Assembly: GCF_000275865.1 (NCBI RefSeq)
Contig: NZ_CM001555.1
Location: forward strand, 372,001 to 436,000
DNA from: Methanofollis liminatans DSM 4140
GTDB taxonomy: Archaea; Halobacteriota; Methanomicrobia; Methanomicrobiales; Methanofollaceae
Direction: 5' to 3'
Length of the DNA stretch: 64,000 bases
Shown here: positions 14,131 to 58,044 of the stretch, piece after piece
Numbering within the stretch: the stretch's first letter is position 1
How the letters are laid out: each line of letters opens with the position of its first letter
Made by a program: the position numbers and the translations under genes
The notes under the pieces: model-generated
Database searches by the model: none
Told to the model about the DNA's origin: nothing
The model's input: only the letters and a program-made list of their open reading frames with translations

Positions 14131-14150
14131 ATTCCCGCCCACTCATAACG
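14131..14150 (+). repeat. IS terminal inverted repeat, left
   Basis: ATTCCCGCCCACTCATAACG. It matches the reverse complement of 15871-15890 at 15 of 20 positions, with the inner ATAACG identical. Confidence 0.7.
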
Positions 14151-15789
14151 AGGCAGGTGGTTCCACCCCAAGATCATAATACAACTGTATTTGTTTCTCC
14201 AGCATCTCACCCACCCTGAGGGATTTCCCTGGTTGTTCAAAACACTCAATAACATCCAGCTTATCCAACAGGCCCGGTAACGTGTAGTTCTTGAGAATGC
14301 CATTCACCTGCATCTGTTTTTTGATGTACGAGAGGTAGATCAGTGCCACAAACTGTACAAACAACTTCCCATCCAGACTCTGTTCCGATGAAACCAGAGT
14401 ACGACGCATATTCAAGCGTTCCTTGAGGTTTCCAAAGGCTTTTTCAACAACATCTTTGTTGCGGTAGAGCTCAAGAGCGGTCACTGCATCCATGGTCTCA
14501 TTGGTGATCAGGGCAAAGAATCCATAATAGCGCCTGGTCTGGTTGACACTCGCCTCATTAACCTGTACGTGTGTTCCACGGCTGGGTGTCGTCTTCACGA
14601 TGAAGTACTGCTGGTAGAGCGTCTCATGTTCAGGCACACGTTTTCCTGACTCCAGCTCCTGCTTCAGTGCGATCAACCGCCGGTCAAAGTTCTTCTCGTC
14701 TTCGGCCGCTTTATCGATGTTATAATAATAGTGAATGTACATGCGGCGTGAATCCTGGAGCGTATCGCCCTTATACGGCCGTTGCTGTGAATAATTCCAG
14801 GTGGTTCGAACCGTTCGGCAATAGAGTTCGTGGTTCTCGCTGTAATGCTCGAAGCTTCGGAATGTATCGTAGATCGCATCCAACTCTTTTCGAACAAAGA
14901 CCAACGACATCTTGACGGAGACCAGAAACTTCACCCGATTCTGAAACAGGCTGTTGATGTTGTCGCGACTATAAAACCCCCGGTCCATGACCAGTTTGAC
15001 CTTCGAATACCCGAGAATATCCAGTTCATGAAGCAGATAGCGGATTGTCTTGGTATCGGGGATATTACCGGCGAGTTTTCTATAGTAGAACGGGAGGTTG
15101 GACTCCTGCCCGAAGACGAGAGCCAGATTCAGTTGAGGGAGTCGATCATGCTCCTTGTTGTGGCCATACTGTACCTGCCTGAGGGCCTGTGAATAACTGG
15201 ACAGGGTTGTTGTATCATAGGCCCAGAATTCCTTTTCCAGCCTTCTTTTTCCCTGCAATATGAAGAATCGTTGTTTGCTCTCCTCGGTGATGCTGGCGAA
15301 CAATTCGCTGCTGCGCGGTGAGGTGAGATTGTCGCCATACGGATGTTTGTGGAGAGACCCCCACTTCTCAAAACGGTAGAGGGGCGTGCTGTCTTCAAGG
15401 ATCAGATAGTATGCGATGGAGAGGATCTGCTTGTAGGTGTCAGGAAAACACTGCTTCAGATCCCGGGTGATCCTCAGTTTCTCACCGATAGCATCCAGCA
15501 GATAGGTGGCTCCGTAAAAGGAGCGGTGCACTTTCTCAGCTGATCTTGATCCGCGCTTCACGCATACCGTATCGTCGTGTGTCTTTCTGTTTCTTCCGTC
15601 GGTGGGGACGATCTCTCCTGATTCTTTATCGACCCGACCGATCAGGGTCCGCCGGGCACGAGATTGTTTCTTCTCCTTATCCCAGTACGATACAGATTGA
15701 TAGGCATAGGTGATCCCGGATCGCTTATCGGTTTGATAGACAATTGCCGCCACCGTGGGTTGCTCCTCGTTATGGATCACATCTGACAC
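14143..15789 (-). CDS. IS1634-family DDE transposase
   Basis: 548 aa. The catalytic triad is visible: first Asp in WAYDTTTLSSYS, second Asp in KLVMDRGFYS, and Glu in YRNKDVVEKAFGNLK, the Y...E......K signature of IS4-superfamily enzymes. The start is GTG (GTGTCAGATGTG). The last codons lie inside the left inverted-repeat region, as is usual for compact IS elements. It has no sign of frameshift and is presumably active. Confidence 0.9.
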   Translation of the reverse strand: MSDVIHNEEQPTVAAIVYQTDKRSGITYAYQSVSYWDKEKKQSRARRTLIGRVDKESGEIVPTDGRNRKTHDDTVCVKRGSRSAEKVHRSFYGATYLLDAIGEKLRITRDLKQCFPDTYKQILSIAYYLILEDSTPLYRFEKWGSLHKHPYGDNLTSPRSSELFASITEESKQRFFILQGKRRLEKEFWAYDTTTLSSYSQALRQVQYGHNKEHDRLPQLNLALVFGQESNLPFYYRKLAGNIPDTKTIRYLLHELDILGYSKVKLVMDRGFYSRDNINSLFQNRVKFLVSVKMSLVFVRKELDAIYDTFRSFEHYSENHELYCRTVRTTWNYSQQRPYKGDTLQDSRRMYIHYYYNIDKAAEDEKNFDRRLIALKQELESGKRVPEHETLYQQYFIVKTTPSRGTHVQVNEASVNQTRRYYGFFALITNETMDAVTALELYRNKDVVEKAFGNLKERLNMRRTLVSSEQSLDGKLFVQFVALIYLSYIKKQMQVNGILKNYTLPGLLDKLDVIECFEQPGKSLRVGEMLEKQIQLYYDLGVEPPASL

Positions 15790-15870
15790 ATAACGATGAT
15801 AAAACTTTCGCTTCGATGGAGAAGAGCTATTTGAGATTTTAAGGATGATGGAACGAGAAATTTTTGAACA

Positions 15871-15890
15871 CGTTATGGGTTACCGAGAAT
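15871..15890 (-). repeat. IS terminal inverted repeat, right
   Basis: CGTTATGGGTTACCGAGAAT, partner of 14131-14150 (15 of 20 matching as inverted repeat). Confidence 0.7.
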
Positions 15891-15893
15891 GCA

Positions 15894-15902
15894 GGTTGTA
15901 CC
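15894..15902 (+). repeat. Target site duplication, right copy
   Basis: GGTTGTACC, identical to 14118-14126. Confidence 0.85.
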
Positions 15903-16697
15903 TCATCTTCGACAAATCTAAACTCTGCAGGGATGTCACGAGATGAAATAATCTCCAGTTCTATTGAAGTGCCGTACGGGGATCTATTCCGATATAATGA
16001 AAAATATGTTGGAAAGGTTGTTCATATGAAAGGCCAGGTATTACAAGTTTCTGAAACAGGAACAGATGATTTTGTTGTAAGATTATCTACGAAAGACTCG
16101 GGATACGGTTACTATGATGACATCGTCTGGGTTGAATTCCGGAATACAAAAGAGAGGATACTCGAAGACGATATGTTAGATGTCTATGGAGAAGTCGTAG
16201 GCATACAAAAATATACGGCAGTATTAGGAAACGAAGTTTCTATACCGGCCGTTGTTGTTAAAGTTTATAGCATCGTGGATACTGGAGAGATAGCTGTGGA
16301 TCAACTATCATCTGCTACAAGCCTCTCAGTTTCAACAATGTCAAAAAATTGGGATAGTGATGCAGATGATGATGGCATAATTATCTATCCTACTATTAAA
16401 GACTCGAATGGAAACTCGATAAAATGGGCCGGTCTTGAACTCCCCGTATCTGTTAAGATTTATACAACGAATTATAATTCAAATTTCCAACAATATAAAG
16501 ACAAACTTGTTTACACCGGAACAGGGACTCTTTCAAGCTGGGAAGATGGGAATATGTTCTCTGAAGGTGGAATTAAAGTTCCATATACTCAAATAAACGC
16601 TCCCTCTGGTGAAGATTATGGGTGGACTTATGTTACGGTGACTCTCCCCGATGGAAAACAGATTGAAGGTGTTGATAAGTTTACTTCGCTACGATAA

Positions 16698-17195
16698 TTT
16701 GAAGCAGAAAAAATCTTATTTTACTCCTTATTTGCCCATTTTGATGTAATTTGAGGTGGGATAAATGCTAAAATACACATAAATATCATTATGTTATTAT
16801 CCGCAGGGTGGCATTTCACAACAATACAAAAATGTAAATATTGGTATTGTATAATCTGTGGAATGCAATGTGGAGTTGATGTTTGGGGTAGAGGTATCCT
16901 TTATCGTATCATTGATGATTTTACTAAAAATTTCAATGATGATGAAGTTGAATATTCTCATTACAACGTTTGAAGGATCTATTGGGGTGGAGGCAGGTTT
17001 GCCTTCTCCTTCAATGTTATGATCAGATACTCAAACTCTAAACAGAAGCCACCCTAATAGATCAAGGGGGGTTCGATTCCCCCGCTCCACTTATTTTGAT
17101 ATCTTAAAATTCCAAAGGAATAGTGGTACGAGGACACCTCCTACTACGATCCCGAAAAAAAGCAGATCCGACACAAATTATTTTATTGTATTCTT
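16698..17195. other. AT-rich gap with tRNA-like remnant and inverted repeats
   Basis: No convincing gene. A 60-codon open frame at 16791-16973 has no ribosome-binding site and no recognisable motif. Near the end, ATTGGGGTGG (16981-16990) pairs with CCACCCTAAT (17049-17058) around an inner hairpin (GAGGCA/TGCCTT). A tRNA 3' half follows at once (see 17066-17091). Confidence 0.5.
17066..17091 (+). pseudogene. tRNA 3'-end remnant (T arm plus acceptor strand)
   Basis: GGGGG-TTCGATT-CCCCC (17067-17083) is a perfect T stem-loop, followed directly by a seven-base acceptor strand GCTCCAC and one T in the discriminator position. Six of these seven bases could pair with GTGGAG at 16987-16992, but no D arm or anticodon arm can be built between them, so it is not a complete tRNA. 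The geometry is what an integrase leaves when an element enters the 3' end of a tRNA gene. Confidence 0.5.
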
Positions 17196-19778
17196 TTAAA
17201 TCATTAGATCCGAAGAATGACCTATAATTGCGATTTTTGGTTCATTTAGGATCTTTTCAATCAAAGGATCACGATCATCCATCTTTTGCTTAAATTCATC
17301 TTTGGAGAGGAGGATATTGTTTATCTCAATCTTAATGATATCCTGGGCTTTTTTAAGGGCATTACGAATACATTCTGGATCTGGTTCACCAATAATAAGA
17401 AGATCTAATTCTCTACTTGAATTAAAATACGTAAAAACAAAAGATCCATAAATAAACATTCCATCTATCTTTTCACTCGTCAAAAATGCGTTTTTTATAG
17501 CATTTACAACAGATAATCGCTTTAATGTGTCTTTGGCATCTTGACCGTCGTTCCATTTCTCTTTTGAATCCTCTTCTAACAATTGGATAATGGTCGGGTT
17601 TGATATTCCTTTTTTTGCAAGGGCTCGTGCAGCTCCATGGCGAAGATCGTCTCTTGATAATGCAGATTTGAGAGCACAAATTGCCTTAGGATCATCTGAC
17701 ATTCCCAAATAATGAACCGTGGCACCTTTCACACTTTTAGCTTTGTCAAATAACCTCTCCAAGATTGGTTCAATTATGAGTGGTTCATGAGATTGCCCTT
17801 TTTTTACCGTAAGTAATGATCTTATGGCCGCCTCTCTGACCGAACCATTGGTATCATTAAGACATTTAATCAAAGGCTCAATTTTTTTTGGATTATCTAC
17901 TTCAGATAAATCATATGCTGCTCTCCTTCGAACAGCAGGATCGCGGTCCATCAATTTTTGAATTAACAATTCTACTTTTTGATTCTTCTTTAGTGGATCT
18001 GTCATGATGATTTTATCATTTACAATAGATTCATCAAAAGAATTGGACAAACATCCAGATTTCTTGAGTGCCTCATAGAAGAATAATATCATATCTTCAA
18101 TTGGGGCATTTTTATCGAGTTCAGGATTACTGTACTTGTCTGGAATTGATGGATTATAGAACAAATTATGTTTTAATGTTGATTTATCCCATAGTGAGTT
18201 GAAATTAAATTGATGGGGGTGTCCCTTTAACTTAGTCCCAATATGGATATCATTTTGATAATATGCTGCTACCATGAGAGATTGAAGGATATTGTTCTTT
18301 CTTACGAAATCGAAGTGAGGTATAAGTTGTAATATTGTATCGACCGCGCATTCATAATTTCCGAATAAAAGATGCCTTTCAAGCCCGTAATAAAATATAA
18401 ATACATAACCCAGAGCAACTGGCTTTGTAATATCTCTCAACCAATTTAGATAGATATACTTTTGCTGAGGACTTAAATTTTTGAATGTAGGATAATATTC
18501 TAGAGATTCTAAGGGATCTATTTTGGGGTTCATTATAATCTTATGATTACTATATATTAGGCTGGGTTCAGTTTTTGGAACTTTTAAATTGTATTTGCCA
18601 TCTTTGAACCACAACAATTTGAGTATATTATTTGGTATTTTATAATTTTTAATATACTGTTCTACTATCATTTCAATAATGGGGCCTGATTCACTCTTTG
18701 ATTGTAATATATTGGAGTATATTTCATCATCATAGAATAGTTTATATTCAATCAATGAATCGCGTGCAGTTTCTGAGATTATAATATTGGAATCTCTGGT
18801 TAATTGTATCAATGAATCTATTACCGGACGAATCTTTTTTTGCGCTTCTAAATAATCATCATTATCTAGTTCTTCTAAATTTTCATCATCTAGATCAAAT
18901 TCAAAAAATGATGATATACTCTTTCCAATTTCCCCCAATGCTCTAATTGCACAGAGTTTTACTTTATCGTTATCAGAGTTGAGATGATGATTTATTACAT
19001 CTATCGCTGGCAAACCTATTTGACCAATGGAATTTAAAGCGTTCTCTTGAAGTTCTTTTTCGCTGTATTGAATTAAAATGTCAAAAAGAAAATTAATTGT
19101 CCACTCATTTGTAACACATCCTGAATATCGTAATATCATCGCGAGTTTACTCGTTGGTAAATCCTGAATTGACTTTAATAACTCTGAATAGGCGTATTGA
19201 CCCTGAGAAGAGAGAAAATAGATTAGGGCTTCATCACTGACTTCACTATATTCATCATTTAAAAATAGATGAAGTAGAATTTTGGCCGATTCGGGATCTT
19301 TAATCCTTCCAATTATTCCAATGATCGACACACGTTTCTTAGGATCAGCACTCCGGAGATGTTCTTCCAGTAATGGAATGATCCAATTTCCATATCCTGC
19401 AAGAGTACTAATAGCACTTTGTCTTACATGCTCGTTAGGGTCATTGAGGACAGAAAACAGATATGGAATGAATTCTTCATCTTGAAGAAAACTAAGTGAA
19501 AATATTCCACAGGCTCTACACTTGGGATCAGTATCATAAAGCAGTTCTTTTATTGAATCGATTGAAACATTTTTCATCTTCCCTAGCGCTCTTGCAGGGG
19601 GTAGTGCATCATAGAAATCATCCTTCTTTTTTATAATCGCTATTAATTGGGACGTCGTGCGGGGGTCATTAAACTCTGCAATTTTGTCTGCTATTTCTAT
19701 CTCATCTTCTTCGGGATTAAAATCGTTAGATGAAAGTTTTTCTAGTAATTTATCAACCGATATCTTATTAAAATTCAT
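17196..19778 (-). CDS. HEAT - TerB-N-like - HEAT - nucleotidyltransferase protein
   Basis: 860 aa. Residues about 25-350 are HEAT-type helical repeats (for example LNDPNEHVRQSAISTLAGYG). About 415-530 resemble the TerB-N domain of tellurium-resistance/stress systems: LSPQQKYIYLNWLRD followed by LGYVFIFYYGLERHLL. About 600-735 are more HEAT repeats (DRDPAVRRRAAYDLSEV). About 755-860 are a minimal nucleotidyltransferase: IYGSFVFTYFNSSRELDLLI keeps GS and one Asp, with Glu at the other metal site, then IEINNILLSKDEF and a DPLIEKILNEPKIAIIG ending. The ATG at 19778 follows GGAG; the longer open frame upstream is GC-rich and unrelated. AT-rich codon use marks it as acquired. Role unknown; defence or stress signalling is an inference. 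Confidence 0.75.
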   Translation of the reverse strand: MNFNKISVDKLLEKLSSNDFNPEEDEIEIADKIAEFNDPRTTSQLIAIIKKKDDFYDALPPARALGKMKNVSIDSIKELLYDTDPKCRACGIFSLSFLQDEEFIPYLFSVLNDPNEHVRQSAISTLAGYGNWIIPLLEEHLRSADPKKRVSIIGIIGRIKDPESAKILLHLFLNDEYSEVSDEALIYFLSSQGQYAYSELLKSIQDLPTSKLAMILRYSGCVTNEWTINFLFDILIQYSEKELQENALNSIGQIGLPAIDVINHHLNSDNDKVKLCAIRALGEIGKSISSFFEFDLDDENLEELDNDDYLEAQKKIRPVIDSLIQLTRDSNIIISETARDSLIEYKLFYDDEIYSNILQSKSESGPIIEMIVEQYIKNYKIPNNILKLLWFKDGKYNLKVPKTEPSLIYSNHKIIMNPKIDPLESLEYYPTFKNLSPQQKYIYLNWLRDITKPVALGYVFIFYYGLERHLLFGNYECAVDTILQLIPHFDFVRKNNILQSLMVAAYYQNDIHIGTKLKGHPHQFNFNSLWDKSTLKHNLFYNPSIPDKYSNPELDKNAPIEDMILFFYEALKKSGCLSNSFDESIVNDKIIMTDPLKKNQKVELLIQKLMDRDPAVRRRAAYDLSEVDNPKKIEPLIKCLNDTNGSVREAAIRSLLTVKKGQSHEPLIIEPILERLFDKAKSVKGATVHYLGMSDDPKAICALKSALSRDDLRHGAARALAKKGISNPTIIQLLEEDSKEKWNDGQDAKDTLKRLSVVNAIKNAFLTSEKIDGMFIYGSFVFTYFNSSRELDLLIIGEPDPECIRNALKKAQDIIKIEINNILLSKDEFKQKMDDRDPLIEKILNEPKIAIIGHSSDLMI

Positions 19779-20360
19779 ATCTCCGCATTTAACATTGAAT
19801 AATAAATTATTTTCGTATTTATCTGGTCGACTTTCCTCAGTAAGTGTTTTAGGACAGTAATTCCCATTGTGAGCGGATTCCGGTGCCTCTGGCATGGTGC
19901 GGGGCGAGCCATATCTGAACCGGCGGCGAGGGGCAAAGCGACGAAACCGCGGGCTTACCACCGCACCAGAAAAAGTCTGGAGTGAGGCTAGTGGGTGTGG
20001 TACCATTAAATCGCAGGCTCCCTCCCCTTTTTTCGCCGGGCCCCTCGACAATCGCATCTCTGATCGCAATCTCTCCAGCGGTAATGATCATAACCTCTCC
20101 GCGATTGAACATCGACCTGAACGGACCTGATAAAAGATTGGACCACTCAGTACCCGAACCGCCACTCATATGTAGTGTAGCCCAGCCACTCGATAATCAC
20201 CACGATCATCTGGATGCCCCTTCTGTTTTTACCGTGATTATCTCACGCGAAGACGCGAAAAGACGCGAACGTGCCGTAACTATCCGGGATCGCCGGTATA
20301 TGCATGGTCCTATGTCAAACTGCGCCTTCGTATGATCCGATGGGGTGCTGTATGCCCGTC
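19779..20360. other. Gap with no supported gene
   Basis: GC content jumps near 19860, which marks the right edge of the AT-rich island. Open frames on both strands (for example minus 19849-20169) have no motif or convincing ribosome-binding site. GACGCGAA recurs three times at about 20242-20268. On the minus strand near 20215-20153 a 20-codon frame (MIVVIIEWLGYTTYEWRFGY) could be a peptide or a gene scrap. Confidence 0.4.
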
Positions 20361-37170: not shown

Positions 37171-37833
37171 ATGGGTATTCCTGACAACGTCCAGGCCGTA
37201 TTCTTTGACTGCTACAACACCCTGATCGAGATTGGCACCGACGAGGACGACCCGCTGACCTGGCAGATGCTGAGTTCGTGGCTGTCCTATCAGGGCGTCG
37301 CGATCGGAGCGCGGGACCTGATGCACGAGTACAGGCGGACCTGCCGCGAGCAGGCCGTGAGACGGGGAGAATCATACCCCGAGATCGATGTGGAGGCGGT
37401 CTTTGTCCAGATCTGCCGGGACCATCGCCTCTGGGATCTCGATGCGCGCCGGGTCGGCCGCCGGGCTGCACGGACCTTCCGGGCGGCGTCGGTACGGAGA
37501 AAAAGGGTTTTTCCCGAGAGCCTGCGTCTGCTCGAGCACCTCAGGGGCCTGCCGCTGGGCATCGTCTCCAACGGCCAGCGGGTCTTCTCCGAGCACGAAC
37601 TCCGCCACCTCGGTCTCAGGGGGTATTTCGACGTGCTCGTCTTCTCCTCAGACCTCGGGTTCAAGAAGCCCGACCCCAGGATTTTTGTGTATGCCCTGGA
37701 GAAACTCGGGGTCGATCCGGAAAACGCCCTGTTCATCGGGGACTCGTACCGAAACGACATCCTGGCCCCGCGGGCAATCGGGATGCACTCGATGTTTATC
37801 AGGGATGCCTGGGGCCTGCCTGATCGTTCGTGA
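37171..37833 (+). CDS. HAD phosphatase, glycan-cluster copy 1
   Basis: 220 aa. HAD motif I is FFDCYNTL (nucleophile Asp, Tyr in place of the usual second Asp+2 residue), motif II IVSNGQR, motif III Lys in GFKKPDP and motif IV FIGDSYRND. A helical cap sits between motifs I and II. The ATG is preceded by GGGAGGG. It is a clear paralogue of the HAD protein at 44383-45024, and the two bracket the glucan genes. The substrate may be a sugar phosphate made or released in that pathway (inference). Confidence 0.8.
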   Translation: MGIPDNVQAVFFDCYNTLIEIGTDEDDPLTWQMLSSWLSYQGVAIGARDLMHEYRRTCREQAVRRGESYPEIDVEAVFVQICRDHRLWDLDARRVGRRAARTFRAASVRRKRVFPESLRLLEHLRGLPLGIVSNGQRVFSEHELRHLGLRGYFDVLVFSSDLGFKKPDPRIFVYALEKLGVDPENALFIGDSYRNDILAPRAIGMHSMFIRDAWGLPDRS

Positions 37834-37861
37834 GCCGGCATCATATATGCCGGCTTTTTTC
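37833..37861 (+). terminator. Hairpin plus T-tract after the first HAD gene
   Basis: AGCCGGCAT and ATGCCGGCT form a 9-bp perfect stem with a five-base loop, followed by six T. It lies immediately after the TGA, so the first HAD gene may be transcribed separately from the GH57 gene. Confidence 0.6.
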
Positions 37862-37956
37862 TGAGAAAATTATTTATTCCGCGTCCCGAAAGAGGGTGGT
37901 GCTACGGTGCGGTCTTTCCGGAACGGTAAGACGGCACCGTTGCGAGGGGGGGTATC

Positions 37957-39390
37957 ATGGCAGGTATCTGTCTGGGATTCGAGGTGCATCAACCGTTCCG
38001 CCTGAACCCTTCGTTCAGGCCTGAGGCGGCGAAAGGGCGGCGGGACCTGAAGAACCACTACTTCGACCCGGGGAACCGGGCGATCCTGAGAAGGGTGGCC
38101 GAACGCTGCTACGTCCCGGCCACAGGGCTGCTCATCGACGCCCTCGACGAGGGGCTGCGGTGTTCGTTCTCGCTTTCGGGCGTGCTCGTCGAGCAGCTCG
38201 AAGCGTGGTGCCCCGAGGCCCTCTCCCTCTTTGTCGAGGCGGGCTCCCACCGGAATGCCGAGGTGCTCGCCCAGACCTATTACCACAGCCTTGCCGGCTT
38301 TTTTGCCGACCGGGACGAACTCGCCGCTCAGATCGGGATGCACGCCGATCTGATGGCCGAGCTCTTCGGCCGGCGGCCCCGCGTGGCCGAGAACACCGAG
38401 TTCTCTCTCGACCCGGGCATCGCCGCCGCCATCAGGGACCTCGGCTTCTCGGCCGTCTACACCGAGGGGGCCGACCGCATCCTCCTGGGAAGGACGCCGA
38501 ACGAGACCTACACCTGCGAGGGCATGCCGGTGCTCCTCCGCAACTGCCCGCTCTCAGACGACATCGCCTTCAGGTTTTCATGGAAGGGGTGGGACAAACA
38601 GCCCCTGACCGCCGGGAAGTACGCCGCCTGGATCGCCGGATCGCCTGGCCGGTGCGCCCACGTCTTCGTGGACTTCGAGACCTTCGGCGAGCACCAGCCC
38701 GCGGGGAGCGGGATCTTCGGCTTTCTCTCAGCCCTGCCCGCCGCTCTCGACAGGGCCGGGGTTGCGTGTGTTCTTCCCTCGGAAGCGGCGGCGCACCCGC
38801 CGGCAGGAAGGATCGAGATCCCTGATCCGGTCTCATGGGCCGACCTGGAAAAGGACACCTCGGCATGGCTCGGCAACCACCTCCAGAGGAGCGCCTTTTT
38901 CGCCCTCGAGCACTCGCCGGCCCGCACGATGCGCCCGGAACTCTGGCGGTACCTCGGCACGAGCGACCACTTCTATTATCTTGCCTCGAAGGACGGGTCC
39001 TGCGGCGAGGTCCACCGGCACTTTTGCCCGAACGGCAGGTTCGAGTCCTACGAGGCCTTCATGCAGGTCCTCTCCCACCTCGAACGGCGCTGCCTCCCGA
39101 GAGCGAAACACTCCCTCGTCTCGCTCCCGGCGGACCGGGCCTTCCACTTCTCCTTCCCGGACGGCACCTATGCCGGGTGGTCGGCCCACAGCCTCCGCGA
39201 GTTCGAGGAGGCGCTCGATCAGGCGCCTGCGGCCGCGGTGGACCGCCACCTTGCCCGCGGCGACTTCGCACGCTGGATCGAGGGATCGTTTGGCGAACGC
39301 CGGCTTGCCCGGGAGGTCGCGGCCTGCGAGACGGTCGATGCGGTGAAGAAGGCGGTGCGGGAACGGAGGTGCAGGCTGTGCGCCCGCTGA
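37957..39390 (+). CDS. GH57 family alpha-glucan hydrolase
   Basis: 477 aa. GH57 regions are visible: HQPFR near the N-terminus (11-15), nucleophile Glu148 in VAENTEF, and the acid Asp239 in VFVDFETFGEH. This subgroup is annotated as alpha-amylase, but some GH57 members are branching enzymes or 4-alpha-glucanotransferases, so the exact reaction is open. No signal peptide, so it acts on an internal glucan. AGGGGGG lies upstream of the ATG, and an A/T box near 37866 may be the promoter. Confidence 0.85.
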   Translation: MAGICLGFEVHQPFRLNPSFRPEAAKGRRDLKNHYFDPGNRAILRRVAERCYVPATGLLIDALDEGLRCSFSLSGVLVEQLEAWCPEALSLFVEAGSHRNAEVLAQTYYHSLAGFFADRDELAAQIGMHADLMAELFGRRPRVAENTEFSLDPGIAAAIRDLGFSAVYTEGADRILLGRTPNETYTCEGMPVLLRNCPLSDDIAFRFSWKGWDKQPLTAGKYAAWIAGSPGRCAHVFVDFETFGEHQPAGSGIFGFLSALPAALDRAGVACVLPSEAAAHPPAGRIEIPDPVSWADLEKDTSAWLGNHLQRSAFFALEHSPARTMRPELWRYLGTSDHFYYLASKDGSCGEVHRHFCPNGRFESYEAFMQVLSHLERRCLPRAKHSLVSLPADRAFHFSFPDGTYAGWSAHSLREFEEALDQAPAAAVDRHLARGDFARWIEGSFGERRLAREVAACETVDAVKKAVRERRCRLCAR

Positions 39391-40511
39391 AGATCGCCTT
39401 CTTCTGCTGGGAGTCGCTCCATGCGGTGCGGGTCGGCGGCCTTGCCCCGGCCGCCACCTGTCTTGCCGAGGCCCTCGCCCGCCGCGGCCACGAGATCCAC
39501 TTCTTCACCCGCGGCCCGGGCCCTGACGAGAGAAACGGCGTGCGCTATCACTACTGCAGCCCGCAGGGAGGAAACATCGTCGATTACTGCCGTGACCTCT
39601 CTCTCCAGGCCGCCGCCCTCTTCAGGGGGGAGGACTCGCCGCCCTTCGATATCCTGCACTTTCACGACTGGCACTTTGTGGAGGCGCTCCACCTCTTCCG
39701 GGACCGAAAGACAGTGCTCTCCTTTCACTCGACCGAATACGGCCGGAACGGCAACCAGAGAGGGGGATGGTGGGAGTTCGGCGAGATCTCCGGGAAAGAG
39801 TGGTATGGCGCCTATATTGCAAAGCGGGTCGCGGCGGTCTCCCGCACCCTCAGGCAGGAGGTGATGGGTCTCTACAATGTCCCTGACTGGAAGATCGACG
39901 CCGTCCCGAACGGTATCGATCCCGACCGCTATTATATGCCGGTCGATGCCGGGGCGGTGAAAGAGGAGTACGGCGTCCACCCGTACGCCCCGCTCGTCTT
40001 CTTCGGCGGGCGTCTCGCCTACCAGAAAGGTCCCGACCTCCTCCTCAGGGCGGTGCCCGCCGTCCTGAAAAATCGCTGGGACGCTCACTTTCTCTTTGCC
40101 GGGGAGGGGGACATGCACGGCGTGCTCTCCCGCCGCGCCGGGGGGATGCCGGTGCGCCTTCTCGGCTATCTCGACGAGCCCGCCTATATCAGGCTCATGA
40201 ACGCCGCCGATATCGTCGCCATCCCGAGCAGGAACGAACCTTTCGGGCTGGTCCTCACCGAGGCGTGGAGCGCCGGCCGCTGCGTTGTCGCTTCAGACGT
40301 CGGCGGCCTCTCCGAGAACATCGACCAGTTTGTCAACGGCGTGAAGGTGCAGCCGTCCGCGAAAGGGATCGCCGACGGGATCAACGCGGTCATCGGCGAT
40401 CACGGGCTCTGCTGCGCCCTCGGCAGGCGCGGCCGGGAGAAGGTGGAGCGCGAGTTCCGCTGGGAGGCGGTCGCCGGCGCGATGGAGCGCCTCTATGAAC
40501 AGGTGCTCTGA
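39378..40511 (+). CDS. GT4 glycosyltransferase (glycogen synthase-like) 1
   Basis: 377 aa, GT-B fold. The N-terminal acceptor domain begins PLKIAFFCWESLHAVRVGG and includes FHDWHFVEAL; the C-terminal donor domain has FFGGRLAYQKGPDLLL and the nucleotide-sugar motif PSRNEPFGLVLTEAW. The GTG at 39378 is chosen because GGAGGTG lies six bases upstream. It overlaps the GH57 gene by 13 bases. Probably adds glucose to an alpha-glucan. Confidence 0.85.
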   Translation: MRPLKIAFFCWESLHAVRVGGLAPAATCLAEALARRGHEIHFFTRGPGPDERNGVRYHYCSPQGGNIVDYCRDLSLQAAALFRGEDSPPFDILHFHDWHFVEALHLFRDRKTVLSFHSTEYGRNGNQRGGWWEFGEISGKEWYGAYIAKRVAAVSRTLRQEVMGLYNVPDWKIDAVPNGIDPDRYYMPVDAGAVKEEYGVHPYAPLVFFGGRLAYQKGPDLLLRAVPAVLKNRWDAHFLFAGEGDMHGVLSRRAGGMPVRLLGYLDEPAYIRLMNAADIVAIPSRNEPFGLVLTEAWSAGRCVVASDVGGLSENIDQFVNGVKVQPSAKGIADGINAVIGDHGLCCALGRRGREKVEREFRWEAVAGAMERLYEQVL

Positions 40512-41746
40512 TGCGGATCGCCTATTTTCTCGATGAGTTCCCGCCGTTTTTCAGGGGGGGGCTCGGCACCTATGCCCTGGAGGTTGCGCCGCGGCTCGCG
40601 GCGGCAGGTCACGCCCTGAGCGTCTACGCCTGGTTGAGCGAGGGCACGGCGGCCGAAGAGATCGGGGGGGCGATCACGGTCAGGAGACCGGCGATCCCTG
40701 ACCCGCGCCCCCTCCTCCCGATCCTCCTCCCGCAGGAGGTGGCGGGCTGGCCGCCTGACTCGCAGCGGTTCTTTGCCGAATACCAGTTCTTCTCGATCCT
40801 CTCCGCCGGCGACCTCCTCGAGCGGGGCATGGGTCACGACCTCGCCGTCGCCCACGACTGGCTCGCGGCCCCGGCCGGCATGCTCGCCGCGGCGAGTCTG
40901 AATATCCCGTTTGTGCTTCACGTCCACTCCACCGAGGCCGGGCGGTCGGCTGGCGGGGGGTCGCCGACGATCAGGGCGTTAGAGGCGCGGGCTGCGGAGC
41001 GTGCGGATGTCGTCGTCACCGTGAGCCGGGCGATGCAGGACGAACTCGTCTCCCTGGGCGTTCCCCGGGAAAAGATCCGGGTGGTCTACAACGGGGTCGA
41101 CCCGGCGAAGTACGATCCCGGCCGCGTTTTGGAGGCTGACGTCAGGGCGTTCCGGGAGCGCCTGGGCCTGGGCGACGACCCGGTGATCCTTTTTGTCGGG
41201 AGGCTGACCAGGGTGAAGGGCGCCGACACCCTGGTCAGGGCCTTCCAGTACGTCCTCCAGGACGTCCCGGAGGCGCGCCTCGTCGTGATCGGGGTCGGCG
41301 AGACAGAGGACGAGGTGCGCCACCTCGCGGAGATGAAAGGGGGGGGGAGAGTTCACCTGCTCTTCTCGGTGCTCCCTGAGGAGGAGCGGATAATCGCCTA
41401 TGCTGCCGCCGACCTCTGCGTCTTTCCCTCGAACTACGAGCCCTTCGGCATCGTCTGCACCGAAGCGATGGCGATGGCGAAACCGGTCGTCGTCGGGGCG
41501 CAGGGCACCTCGGGGATGCGCGAGCAGGTCGTCCCCTCGGGGCCGGGGATCTGCGGTTTTCATATCGACCCGTACGATCCCCGGGACATCGCCATCTATA
41601 TCTCCCTGATCCTGCGGGACGCCGCTCTCAGGGAGACGATGGGCAGGAACGGGAGGGCGCGGGTGCTCGCACTGTTCACCTGGGAAGGCGCCGTCGAGGC
41701 GACGCTGGCGGCGTACGAGGAGGCGTGCCAACGGAGGGGCGGATGA
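40511..41746 (+). CDS. GT4 glycosyltransferase (glycogen synthase-like) 2
   Basis: 411 aa. Same GT-B layout as the gene before it: MRIAYFLDEFPPFFRGGLGT with the GGLGT donor loop, VAHDWLAAPAGML, then FVGRLTRVKGADTLV and PSNYEPFGIVCTEAMAM. It is closer than its neighbour to archaeal glycogen/starch synthases by the GGLGTYALEV start. Overlaps the preceding stop by one base (TGATG) and the debranching gene by four. Two synthases in a row suggest distinct donors or acceptors. Confidence 0.87.
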   Translation: MRIAYFLDEFPPFFRGGLGTYALEVAPRLAAAGHALSVYAWLSEGTAAEEIGGAITVRRPAIPDPRPLLPILLPQEVAGWPPDSQRFFAEYQFFSILSAGDLLERGMGHDLAVAHDWLAAPAGMLAAASLNIPFVLHVHSTEAGRSAGGGSPTIRALEARAAERADVVVTVSRAMQDELVSLGVPREKIRVVYNGVDPAKYDPGRVLEADVRAFRERLGLGDDPVILFVGRLTRVKGADTLVRAFQYVLQDVPEARLVVIGVGETEDEVRHLAEMKGGGRVHLLFSVLPEEERIIAYAAADLCVFPSNYEPFGIVCTEAMAMAKPVVVGAQGTSGMREQVVPSGPGICGFHIDPYDPRDIAIYISLILRDAALRETMGRNGRARVLALFTWEGAVEATLAAYEEACQRRGG

Positions 41747-43440
41747 TCGCTTTCGGGCCCGAAGTGCGGGACCGGAGGTTCGCACGGCGAAAAGAGTTCC
41801 TGCTCGTCTGCAACGGGGCGTGGTCCTCCTCCTCCCTTGCCGGGAACACCCGGAAATATCACGGTCTGCTGGTGGCCGGGGGCCGCGTCCTCCTCGCCTC
41901 GCTGGACGAGCACCTCAACGGCGAGCCCCTCACCCCGGCGGCCTACGCCGGCGGGACCGACGAGCGCGGTCTCGCCCGCCTGTACGGCGTTTGCCTGGAT
42001 CCCGATCCCGTGTTTTCCTATGCGGCAGGCGGCGCCTCCCTCAGAAAACGCATCTCGTTCGACGGCGCCCTCACGGTCAGGTACGATCTCGCCGGGCCTG
42101 GCGAGGTGCGGGTCGTCCCGCTCGTCGCCGACCGGGGGATCCACGAGACCAGAACGGCGTACGACCTCACGGCGACGCCTATCCCCGGCGGGGTTCGGAT
42201 CGGGCCGCTCACCCTGCGGTCGGAGGAGATGGCCTTCACCCCGGCGCCCTGCCTCTACCGCGACCTCCTCTACGAGGAGGACAGGGAGCGGGGGTATGCG
42301 CACCAGGAACACCTCTACGCGCCGGGCGCGTTCACCGCCGCCGGCGAGGACTGCACCTTCACCCTCACCGCCGAGGCCGCCGGCGTGCCCCGCTCTGCCG
42401 CACGGCCCGGTCGGGGAGACTGGCTCGAACAGGCCGCGGATTCGTTTCTCTGCGGCGACGAGATCCTGGCCGGCTATCACTGGTTTGCCGAAGGCTGGGG
42501 GCGGGACACCTTCGTATCGCTCCCCGGCCTCCTCCTCTCGCGGGGGAGCTATGCAGAGGCCCGCCGGGTCTTTGCCCGCTATGCCGGAAGGTTGAAGGGC
42601 GGCCTCATCCCGAACCGGATGCCCGACGACTACGCCTCAAGCGACGCCCCGCTCTGGTTTCTCCATGCCCTCGAACGCTACCGCGCCTGCTCCCGTGACG
42701 ACCGGTTTGTGGCGTCCATGAGGCCGCATATCGAGGCGATCCTCCGGGAGTATCCCGAAAGCGCCGTGGCGCATCTCGACGGCGGTCTCATCGCCGTTGC
42801 GCCGCGGAGCACCTGGATGGACACGCCCCATACCCCGCGGGCCGGAAAACCGGTGGAGGTGAACGCCCTCTGGATCGCCGCCCTCAAGTTCGCCGAATCC
42901 CTCGGGATCGAGGGGCCGGTGCCGGCGTATACGGCAGAGAACGCCTTCGCCCGGTTCTGGAACCAGGATAGGGGTTGTTTCTTCGACCTCCTCGACCCGG
43001 CCGATCCTGCAGTCCGCCCGAACCAGGCGATCGCCCTCGCCCTCGGGCTCGCGCCGCCCGAAGAGGGGCGCCGTGCCCTCGGCGTGATCCGGGAGGAACT
43101 GCTCACGCCCTTCGGGCTGCGCACCCTCTCGCCGCGCGAGCGCGGCTATGCCGGCCGGTTCGCAGGCGACGCCACCTACCACAACGGCACGGTCTGGCCG
43201 TGGCTCCTCCCCTTTTACATCGACGCCCTGCGCATCTACGCACCGGGCGCCGACCCCGCCGTCCTGCTCGCCCCGCTCTTTGCCCACCTTGCCGACGCCG
43301 GCCTCGGCACCGTCTCGGAGTGCTTCGACGGCGACCCGCCGCACCGCCCCCGCGGCTGCATCTCCCAGGCCTGGAGCGTCGCCGGGGTGTTGCGGGGATA
43401 CCGCGGCCCGCCCTCGGGGGGTGACGCCGGTGCGGCATGA
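41743..43440 (+). CDS. Glycogen debranching enzyme (amylo-1,6-glucosidase)
   Basis: 565 aa. N-terminal beta domain with SSLAGNTRKYHGLLV, typical of bacterial/archaeal GDE_N, and a C-terminal (alpha/alpha)6 barrel with EGWGRDTFVSLPGLLL, NRMPDD, STWMDT and VEVNALW, the GH133-type catalytic face. It removes alpha-1,6 branches from glycogen-like glucan. The ATG at 41743 overlaps the GT stop and follows CGGAGG. Confidence 0.9.
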   Translation: MIAFGPEVRDRRFARRKEFLLVCNGAWSSSSLAGNTRKYHGLLVAGGRVLLASLDEHLNGEPLTPAAYAGGTDERGLARLYGVCLDPDPVFSYAAGGASLRKRISFDGALTVRYDLAGPGEVRVVPLVADRGIHETRTAYDLTATPIPGGVRIGPLTLRSEEMAFTPAPCLYRDLLYEEDRERGYAHQEHLYAPGAFTAAGEDCTFTLTAEAAGVPRSAARPGRGDWLEQAADSFLCGDEILAGYHWFAEGWGRDTFVSLPGLLLSRGSYAEARRVFARYAGRLKGGLIPNRMPDDYASSDAPLWFLHALERYRACSRDDRFVASMRPHIEAILREYPESAVAHLDGGLIAVAPRSTWMDTPHTPRAGKPVEVNALWIAALKFAESLGIEGPVPAYTAENAFARFWNQDRGCFFDLLDPADPAVRPNQAIALALGLAPPEEGRRALGVIREELLTPFGLRTLSPRERGYAGRFAGDATYHNGTVWPWLLPFYIDALRIYAPGADPAVLLAPLFAHLADAGLGTVSECFDGDPPHRPRGCISQAWSVAGVLRGYRGPPSGGDAGAA

Positions 43441-44371
43441 ACGGCATCTCGCCACCCTGCACCAGGGCGATCCGTTCAGGGACTGGCTCGTCTCGGTGCT
43501 CGACGGCCGCCTGCCCGACCCCTCGGCCCCGGCCGAGGTCTCCCTGATCAGGCCGGCCTCGCACACCGTCTGCCGCTACCGCTTTGCCGGCGGACCGGCG
43601 GTGGTCGCAAAGTTCTTCGCCGAACCGACCGGAGCGAACCACTGCTACGACCCGGAGAAGGCGATGAAGTCCGAGTTCCGTCTGCTCAGGCGGGCGGGAA
43701 AGGTGGTCCGGGTCGCCGAACCCCTTGCGATGAGGCGGGAGTTCAACTGCGTCCTGGTGACCGCCTTCGTGCCGGGCACGCCGCTCTCCGCCTGTCTGGG
43801 GGACGATCCTGCCCTCTACGGTCGCCTGACCGGCGTCGCCACCCTGCTCAGGCGGCTCCACGACCTGGAGTCGTCCCGGTACCGCAAGGAGCGGGAGTTC
43901 TCGAACGTCCATGACGTCCTCGACCAGAACCGCCTCTCCGGGGAGGAGCGGGAGTACTTCAACCGCCTGCTCGGGGAATGGTGGCATTCGGGCGCCCTTG
44001 ACCGCGACCGCGGCTGCATGATCCACCGGGACGCCACGCCGGCAAACTATCTCTTCACAAACGACGGCGTCGTGGCGATCGATTTTGAATCCGCATGGAC
44101 CGATGCCCACCCGGCCCACGACCCCGGGATCTTCTGCGCCGAGATGAAATTCGCCTTTCGTCGTCGCTGCGGCAACCCCGACGCCGCCGAGCCCTATATC
44201 GGCCACTTCCTCTGGAACTATGCCCGTTCCCCTGAGGAGTTTGCGTACATCACCGGGTGCGTCCCGTTTTACATGGGGCTCGGCTATCTCAGGATGGCGC
44301 GCCTGGCGCCCCCGCGGGAGGAACGAAACTGGCTTTTACAGGAGGCGATGCTCTGTCTGAGGCGCCGGTAG
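43430..44371 (+). CDS. APH-fold kinase in the glycan operon
   Basis: 313 aa. The catalytic loop MIHRDATPANYLF (HxDxxxxN) and metal-binding VAIDFES are those of aminoglycoside/choline-type phosphotransferases; the N lobe contains AVVAKFFAEP as the ATP Lys strand. The GTG at 43430 is preceded by a GGGGGGTG ribosome-binding site six bases upstream and lies within the debranching gene. A sugar or maltose kinase role is suggested by context only. Confidence 0.75.
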   Translation: MRHERHLATLHQGDPFRDWLVSVLDGRLPDPSAPAEVSLIRPASHTVCRYRFAGGPAVVAKFFAEPTGANHCYDPEKAMKSEFRLLRRAGKVVRVAEPLAMRREFNCVLVTAFVPGTPLSACLGDDPALYGRLTGVATLLRRLHDLESSRYRKEREFSNVHDVLDQNRLSGEEREYFNRLLGEWWHSGALDRDRGCMIHRDATPANYLFTNDGVVAIDFESAWTDAHPAHDPGIFCAEMKFAFRRRCGNPDAAEPYIGHFLWNYARSPEEFAYITGCVPFYMGLGYLRMARLAPPREERNWLLQEAMLCLRRR

Positions 44372-44382
44372 ACTTCTCACGG

Positions 44383-45024
44383 GTGCAGGGGATCTTCTTC
44401 GACTGCTACGACACCCTGCTCGATATCAGCATCGACGAGCGGAGTCCCGGGCCGTACCGGACGCTCAGCTCCTGGCTTGCCTATCAGGGGGTCAGTATCA
44501 CGCCCGAAGACCTGCAGGCGGCATACCGAAAACGGATCAGGGACGAGATGCAGGTGAGGGGCGGAGCGCACCCCGAGGTGCGGGTCGAGGAGGTCTTCGC
44601 CGGGATATGCCGGGACCATGCGGTCTGGCCCATTGATTTCACGGCGCTTGGCGTCCTGCTCGCCCGCTCCTTCAGGGCGGCGACCGTCAGGCGTATCTGC
44701 GCATTTCCCAGCAGTCGCCGCCTGATCGCCGCCCTCAGCGCATACCCCCTCGGGGTCGTCTCCAACGGCCAGCGGGTCTTCTCAGAGATCGAATTGCGGA
44801 TGTTCGGCTTCTACCCGTTCTTCCAGACGGTCGTCTTCTCCTCTGACGTGGGGTGCAAAAAACCCGACGAGGCGATCTTTCGTGTGGCGCTCGAACGGAT
44901 GCATCTCGAGCCCGAGCATGTTCTCTTCATCGGCGACTCGCAGAGCAACGATATCATCCCGTCGCGCCGTCTCGGGATGCAGGCCCTGCACATCAACGAG
45001 GCGTGGGCCCTCTTTTCGGTCTGA
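44383..45024 (+). CDS. HAD phosphatase, glycan-cluster copy 2
   Basis: 213 aa from GTG 44383. HAD motifs: FFDCYDTLL, VVSNGQR, CKKPDE and FIGDSQSND. It aligns with the protein at 37171-37833 along nearly its whole length (for example LSSWLAYQGV, SNGQRVFSE). The start is uncertain: the GTG has no ribosome-binding site, while GGAGG at 44341 is spaced for an in-frame CTG at 44353, which would add ten residues and match the paralogue's N-terminus better. Confidence 0.75.
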   Translation: MQGIFFDCYDTLLDISIDERSPGPYRTLSSWLAYQGVSITPEDLQAAYRKRIRDEMQVRGGAHPEVRVEEVFAGICRDHAVWPIDFTALGVLLARSFRAATVRRICAFPSSRRLIAALSAYPLGVVSNGQRVFSEIELRMFGFYPFFQTVVFSSDVGCKKPDEAIFRVALERMHLEPEHVLFIGDSQSNDIIPSRRLGMQALHINEAWALFSV

Positions 45025-57839: not shown

Positions 57840-57861
57840 ATACATTGAACATTTTTTAAAA

Positions 57862-57946
57862 CGCTGAGGGGGAGATTTGAACTCCCGAGGGGCTCAACGC
57901 CCCACGGGCTTTCCAGGCCCGCGCCATACCACTAGACTACCTCAGC
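57862..57946 (-). tRNA. tRNA-Ser (anticodon GGA)
   Basis: 85 nt. Acceptor GCTGAGG pairs with CCTCAGC, discriminator G73 as usual for serine. Anticodon stem CGGGC/GCCCG encloses CTGGAAA, giving GGA. A long variable arm (GGGGC...GCCCC) and the T arm GGGAG-TTCAAAT-CTCCC are present. CCA is not encoded. No intron. Confidence 0.93.
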
Positions 57947-58044
57947 ACTGCGCCTTTAACTATTCGCTTCCCCTTTTTTTAATCCTATCCCCGCGGCCGT
58001 GCCGGCAGGCCCCCTGCCGGTGGGAGTGCGGGCGGGCCAGACCC

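Follow-up and report, generated by a model that had tools for sequence, protein, structure and literature searches.

The locus described here raises the question of why a set of glucan genes in a methanogen should close with a kinase and a member of the HAD family, and what these two proteins handle. It lies in a stretch of 64,000 nucleotides from Methanofollis liminatans DSM 4140 (contig NZ_CM001555.1, positions 372,001 to 436,000; hereafter the window), which is part of a 2.48-Mb genome in a single contig. An earlier note on this DNA had described a GH57 glycoside hydrolase, two GT4 glycosyltransferases (GT4a and GT4b), a glycogen debranching enzyme (GDE) and an APH-fold kinase standing between two HAD genes (HAD1 upstream, HAD2 downstream), and coordinates and Pfam matches confirm all seven genes and their families (Table 1). 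The six genes from GH57 to HAD2 overlap serially, with intergenic gaps of -22, -1, -4, -11 and -19 nt, lengths which depend on the chosen gene starts, alternative starts being possible. They bring a synthase-like glycosyltransferase, a GH57 enzyme and a debrancher together in one transcription-like unit, and positions 37957-45024 are predicted from these genes to be one alpha-glucan (glycogen) operon. Such an operon looks ordinary for methanogens; the real finding is the kinase-HAD module at its end. As in the archaeal and methanogen glycogen sets (GH57, a GT4 or GT5 synthase, GDE and phosphorylase) and the Methanohalophilus glycogen genes covered by the available part of PMC6491703, GH57, GT4 and GDE are adjacent and an alpha-glucan phosphorylase gene is present away from the operon (C1:307.4-309.5 kb). 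The difference is that the window operon closes with an APH-fold kinase and a HAD protein carrying the motif I DxYxT, and that no GH13 branching enzyme was found in the genus. The best reading of the locus, to which we give a probability of roughly 0.4, is an operon with its own kinase and HAD partner for a glucan-derived sugar. A link of the kinase to one HAD, and of both to alpha-glucan metabolism, is supported by co-occurrence and repeated clustering.

The evidence for the pair comes from 199 Methanomicrobiales genomes (the order set) and a sample of 364 genomes of the phylum. The kinase was found in 45 of the 199 genomes, and strong HAD2 matches (E below 1e-38) occur in the same 45, the best match elsewhere being 2.7e-15. 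When contigs were scanned with two peptide patterns of the kinase, 58 loci came up, every one under an archaeal title, Methanosarcina, Methanolobus and Methanomethylovorans among them; in the phylum sample 68 genomes have kinase matches, 62 of them strong, including distant relatives in families f10 and f14 (f and g numbers are our labels for families and genera, G and L numbers for genomes and loci). By these matches the pair reaches Methanosarcinaceae and beyond. We counted a kinase in the fetched loci as paired when a HAD gene follows it on the same strand at a distance of at most 1 kb, which is the case in 20 of 20 Methanomicrobiales loci, in 34 of 48 loci of a second set (mostly f8, whose named members are Methanosarcinaceae) and in 6 of 9 loci of the distant relatives (f10, f14). 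A named set, partly overlapping the others, has the HAD downstream in 50 of 57 loci, and four of the seven misses have under 400 bases of contig left. Among the second set's 14 unpaired kinases, 12 are additional copies, their genomes having a paired one as well; of the other two, L161 is at a contig end and L159 has its HAD in front. Some Methanosarcinales-type genomes (L126, L135, L137-L139) carry two or three kinase copies, several of them lacking a downstream HAD. The synteny check proposed in the earlier note, whether the HADs lie elsewhere in relatives, therefore has a divided outcome: a HAD stands directly downstream of the kinase in all 20 Methanomicrobiales loci, but HAD1 does not stay. 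Judged by gene order, the kinase and the HAD are a conserved two-gene unit. No paper on this pair was found by title or start of abstract in the open-licence PMC literature.

The pair is found almost exclusively in genomes with a glycogen-type enzyme. A GH57 of the window type (E 1e-20 or better) is present in 43 of the 45 kinase genomes of the order vs 56 of the 154 others (Fisher 1e-13), and the two kinase genomes without it are 84% and 80% complete. In the phylum sample GH57 (E 1e-10 or better) occurs in 62/62 strong kinase genomes vs 143/364 overall; counted by genus it occurs in 16/16 kinase genera vs 49/128 (P=4e-8 if genera are independent). These P values assume independent genomes or genera, though they are related. 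The most telling contrasts for the glucan link are those within families: in f2 the kinase and GH57 occur together in 3 of 28 genomes and both are missing from the other 25, and in the congener G009 (99% complete, one contig) searches for kinase, GH57, GT4a, GDE and phosphorylase all came back empty, the HAD search giving a weak match only.

The pair clusters with glucan genes repeatedly, in separate lineages. In ten Methanofollis genomes (own included) HAD2 comes after the kinase, and all ten have GH57-GT4a; nine have these genes ahead of the pair on one contig with it, and in G057 the cluster is split on two contigs. GT4b and GDE are absent from the cluster in G015 and G027, and GDE is absent from both genomes. 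Genus g13 of family f2 has the order GH57-GT4a-GT4b-kinase-HAD-HAD, to which G019 adds a third HAD, a degenerate one, so that operon-like clustering is seen in Methanofollis (f1) and in g13. In Methanohalophilus G276 kinase, HAD, GT4a-like and GH57 genes are each present twice inside 17 kb, together with a GH15 and a GDE, and G209 of the same genus has kinase, HAD, GT4a, two GH57 and GDE inside 13 kb. PMC6491703 reports glycogen enzymes in M. mahii and M. halophilus alone, other Methanohalophilus species lacking them. On one Methanolobus contig (L080) GDE, GT4a and two GH57 genes stand no more than 9 kb from the pair, on the opposite strand, and one 24.6-kb contig of f10 (G259) holds the pair and, about 11 kb or more away from it, genes of the GH57, GT4a, glycogen synthase and nucleotidyltransferase types. 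Since the pair stays together and is found almost only in genomes with a glycogen-type enzyme, it probably handles a sugar set free from glycogen.

The family of the kinase is clearer than its substrate. Its predicted structure (pLDDT 91.5) has an APH-type fold, its PF01636 match is above the cut-off, and the catalytic residues K61, H199, D201 and D218 are present in 115 of 115 aligned rows (E82 and N206 in 114). The nearest solved folds are methylthioribose (MTR) kinases (Z 21.0-22.3, rmsd 3.8-4.3 over 274-295 residues, 12-14% identity), followed by choline kinases and maltokinase at about Z 19-20, with fructosamine kinase and PsiK also at about 19-22; sequence identity is 11-16% throughout. 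Such similar Z values for MTR, PsiK, choline, fructosamine and maltose kinases at low identity mean that the fold gives no substrate. A sequence search of the PDB with the kinase profile returned only amicoumacin kinase (E=3e-4).

The earlier note had suggested a phosphorylated sugar intermediate, for example at a maltose-phosphate or phospho-glucan step. A maltose-phosphate step would fit a GlgE-type pathway in which the kinase is a maltokinase and the GT4 enzymes make or use maltose-1-phosphate. There are points of contact with such a pathway: actinobacterial maltokinase (Pep2/Mak) is also glucan-linked and shares the APH-type fold (Z 19.5 to 4u94, rmsd 3.8 over 277), the best solved chains for GT4b are 6kih (Tll1590, 5.5e-27) and, as second hit, the alpha-maltose-1-phosphate synthase 6tvp (9.3e-26, 94 bits), and TIGR02149 is the best NCBIfam hit for both GT4s, although below its cut-off. 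The part of PMC6520443 available describes a maltokinase loop HxDxHxxQ with a sugar-binding D-x-H, and an N-terminal cap. The catalytic loop of our kinase is HRDATPAN (HxDxTxxN); the loop HxDxHxxQ, which is that of maltokinase and GlcN kinase, occurs in none of 142 kinase stretches (115 distinct), its D-x-H half alone in seven of them, none from the own genus, and the GlcN-kinase signature Q-x(2)-RE-x(2)-YA-x(3)-LP-x-W in none of the 142. The cap is also missing from the window kinase, since the match to 4u94 begins at residue 94 of the latter. A loose maltokinase string, E-x2-Y-x7-W, has one hit, at the own locus (L111), but it stands before the catalytic loop near W184 and was discounted because maltokinase has it in the C-terminal helix. 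A search for GH13 (PF00128) gave no match in the own genome and 11 congeners, with the control positive in 13 of 14 genomes, so that neither GlgB nor GlgE of that family, nor TreS, was found in these 12 genomes. Weak GH13 matches near GT4a exist in G004, G006, G008 and G010, and the protein tested from G004, as well as one from G034, is GlgB. With no GH13 found in the 12 genomes and the maltokinase loop absent, we reject the maltose-phosphate proposal, which we regard as hardly credible.

A sugar kinase is favoured chiefly because in family f5 a kinase of another family holds the neighbouring slot. The ADP-dependent glucokinase/phosphofructokinase family (PF04587) scores above its cut-off in 17 of 199 order genomes, and in 13 of the 17, all f5, the gene is found a little upstream of GH57 or GT4a, no more than 2 kb away and in the same orientation (judged by eye). 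This likeness is a working one only: the protein family differs from that of the window kinase, and PF04587 was not found in 12 of 12 Methanofollis genomes, ROK and PfkB kinases not having been searched for. The argument has its limits, as three g13 genomes have both kinases, which also weakens a simple, general replacement of ADP-glucokinase by the window-type kinase. In the f5 genome G011 a gene of the phosphoribulokinase/uridine-kinase family lies directly 3' of the debrancher (L174 12557-13510), which possibly links a RuBisCO/PRK pathway to the glucan operon; such a pathway exists in methanogens according to the part of PMC5241800 available.

The scheme that we propose infers what the kinase acts on, which way the flux runs and what, if anything, the HADs catalyse. 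GH57, the two GT4 transferases and the debranching enzyme would build and trim the glucan, and the kinase would phosphorylate, at the expense of NTP, the sugar freed by GH57 or the debrancher, be it glucose or a short malto-oligosaccharide. The Methanofollis kinase would in this way stand in for the ADP-dependent glucokinase/phosphofructokinase family, and HAD2 may take the kinase product or a related phosphoester as its substrate, serving as a brake or for repair.

Several observations weigh against this scheme. As many as 56 of the 99 GH57-bearing genomes of the order have no kinase, two f4 genomes of 99% completeness, G004 and G010, among them, so the glucan pathway does not need it, and the co-occurrence counts stand without an unrelated gene family as control. 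The 14 of 48 second-set kinases with no HAD downstream, mostly extra copies, the three g13 genomes with both kinases, and nearest folds that are methylthioribose kinases rather than hexose or maltose kinases all count on the same side; moreover, a sugar-kinase role does not explain the HAD. In f4, to which Methanoculleus belongs among the named records, the kinase-HAD pair stands alone in the inspected loci with GH57-GT4a elsewhere, the two being about 0.93 Mb apart in G034, where GlgB is beside GH57-GT4a. In 17 f8 genomes the kinase and the best GH57 match share a contig, and in 15 of these more than 0.4 Mb lies between them (by eye); at L080 the upstream neighbours of the pair on the + strand are carotenoid/prenyl-type genes, the glucan genes being on the other strand. 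These arrangements would suit an independent kinase-HAD unit, for instance for metabolite repair or the salvage of another alcohol or sugar, which was merely captured by the glucan operon in some lineages. Apart from glucan genes, as in Methanoculleus and Methanosarcina, the pair has unrelated neighbours in the loci examined (HemD, radical SAM, tRNA synthetase), with CBS and MscS types in Methanolobus, and the order of the nearest folds, MTR and then choline, fructosamine and other kinases, agrees with such a role. Two neighbours of the Methanoculleus-type pair (L051 6721-7893 and 9509-10477) have no Pfam match. Nevertheless, an independent unit leaves unexplained that every strong kinase genome of the phylum sample carries the glucan GH57 and that glucan clustering recurs in separate lineages, and we consider it rather unlikely.

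That the partner of the kinase is a phosphatase, as the earlier note had called it, is doubtful. HAD2 is predicted (pLDDT 94.3) to have a HAD fold similar to HAD phosphatases and L-2-haloacid dehalogenases alike. In an alignment of 118 rows (proteins over 190 aa, for which the frameshifted HAD1 of G021 is too short) the superfamily residues are retained: the nucleophile D17 in 117, S137 of motif II and K170 of motif III in all 118, D195 of motif IV in 115, and at the second motif IV position, D200, Asp in 94 and Glu in 23. Position +2 of motif I (Y19) is Tyr in 118 of 118, so that both HADs lack the Asp+2 of the phosphatase motif DxDxT. Asp+2 is the general acid/base of HAD phosphatases according to the parts of PMC8069645 and PMC4081830 available; in the PDB alignments the position is Asp in PH1655 and Val in PH0459. 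With Tyr at +2 and the nucleophile and metal site intact, these HADs are not standard phosphatases, but some activity is likely from the residues kept, and the motif IV GDSxxND would suit a Mg2+-binding phosphotransferase type. L-2-haloacid dehalogenases and other subfamily I HADs also have DxYxT as motif I. The window HADs share their fold with a C1-type cap (ZgHAD 7arp, Z 18.3, rmsd 1.8 over 127), and differ from them in motif IV, GDSxxND, and in scoring 61.2 and 46.3 bits for TIGR01428, below its cut-off of 125.4. A search with PADLOC for a defence role returned no hit for the kinase or for HAD2, and a score of 19.5 bits for HAD1.

These features bear on two further proposals in which phosphate is put on a glucan and taken off again. 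Phospho-glucan control systems are known, namely starch dikinase with SEX4, or laforin, and one could imagine that the kinase phosphorylates the glucan and the HAD removes the phosphate, which would control solubility or turnover. The tight, glucan-linked pairing and the repeated duplication of HADs within the family fit such a cycle. APH kinases, however, act on small molecules, neither kinase nor HAD has a carbohydrate-binding domain by Pfam, and the HADs lack Asp+2, all of which makes it improbable. The missing general base is turned to use in another proposal, that archaeal glycogen has a phosphate write/erase (or phosphoryl-transfer) cycle of its own: the kinase would mark a glucan end or a free malto-oligosaccharide, and the DxYxT HAD, which lacking a general base may hold a long-lived aspartyl-phosphate, would remove or relay the phosphate. 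We regard this as a long shot; if true, methanogens would have a glucan control device unrelated to laforin, SEX4 or GlgE.

A starter for glycogen synthesis is another conceivable product. Kinase and HAD could make and finish a phosphorylated primer, for example of the glucosylglycerate type, for the GT4 enzymes. The GT4 pair in the operon would accommodate this, as would a MOFRL-family gene, which we take to be glycerate-kinase-like, in the f10 glucan contig. That neighbour was seen in one contig only, and GpgS, which is of GT81 type, has no Pfam match among the seven gene products, the rest of the genome not having been searched for it. We hold a primer route to be very unlikely.

HAD1 has to be considered apart from the kinase-HAD pair. 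Paralogous HADs had been seen at both ends of an overlapping series, and the two are genuine paralogues (52% identity over 210 aa, E=1e-79). The series, however, excludes HAD1, because a 123-bp gap with a terminator-like hairpin of 10 pairs and a T run separates it from GH57. The hairpin is also present in the near relative G003. A terminator scan gave 5 terminator-like sites vs 5.0 expected from shuffles, so the strength of the hairpin and not the count is the argument. HAD1 is probably its own transcription unit. Among the ten kinase-bearing genomes of the genus it is intact in three (own, G003 and G057), frameshifted in G021 and without a strong match in six, thus missing or broken in seven. 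The G021 copy (L034 1884-2425), whose remaining cluster is intact, is the sole HAD seen with Asp at +2. In the HAD tree HAD1 lies outside the group of HAD2 with the Methanoculleus and Methanosarcina HADs (fork 92/82, midpoint root). The tree, in which several forks are weak, gives no support to a recent tandem duplication of HAD1 and HAD2, and it indicates that HADs were duplicated more than once inside the family.

Table 1. Features of the glucan locus, in positions of the window
Feature	Position	Strand	Evidence
HAD1, HAD-family, motif I D-C-Y-N-T; accessory paralogue	37171..37833	+	PF00702 4.6e-27
Terminator-like hairpin and T run between HAD1 and GH57	37832..37856	+	10 pairs, z=-4.06
GH57 glycoside hydrolase (amylase, glucanotransferase or branching type)	37957..39390	+	PF03065 1e-59
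GT4a glycosyltransferase, glycogen-synthase-like	39369..40511	+	PF13692/PF00534/PF08323; nearest solved chain GlgA 3fro 3.5e-22
GT4b glycosyltransferase, glycogen/maltose-1-phosphate-synthase-like	40511..41746	+	TIGR02149 158 bits (cut-off 302)
Archaeal glycogen debranching enzyme (GDE)	41743..43440	+	PF06202 8e-80, PF12439 1.3e-23; TIGR01561 211 bits (cut-off 364)
APH-fold small-molecule kinase	43430..44371	+	PF01636 2.9e-11, 44 bits (cut-off 23.2)
HAD2, HAD-family partner of the kinase, motif I D-C-Y-D-T, motif IV GDSxxND	44353..45024	+	PF13419 4.5e-17, PF00702 6.2e-17

The GH57 gene of the window is the only GH57 found in its genome, with a single match. Its product carries HQP, AENTE and DFETFGEH stretches and gave no match in the PDB by phmmer at E 0.01. 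GT4a is a frequent neighbour of GH57 across Methanomicrobiales, and the GT4-type Pfam families match the window GT4s with E-values down to 1.9e-36. HAD2 apparently starts with CTG at 44353, where most congeners have ATG; AGGAGG stands seven bases 5' of it (44340-44345), and the next listed in-frame start is GTG at 44383. Elsewhere in the window a tRNA-Ser (GGA) gene occupies 57861-57947 on the minus strand. The stretch 14143-20069 has a GC content of 0.35-0.47 vs about 0.65 and is probably a small mobile island; it encodes a DDE transposase and a 957-aa HEAT-repeat/TerB_N protein with weak matches to the PADLOC models PDC-M05A and SngA.

The conserved kinase-HAD pair is thus a concrete candidate for the re-entry of glucose from glycogen in a genus in which no ADP-glucokinase was found. 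Since the pair also occurs in Methanosarcina species, for which genetic tools exist, the question is directly testable.

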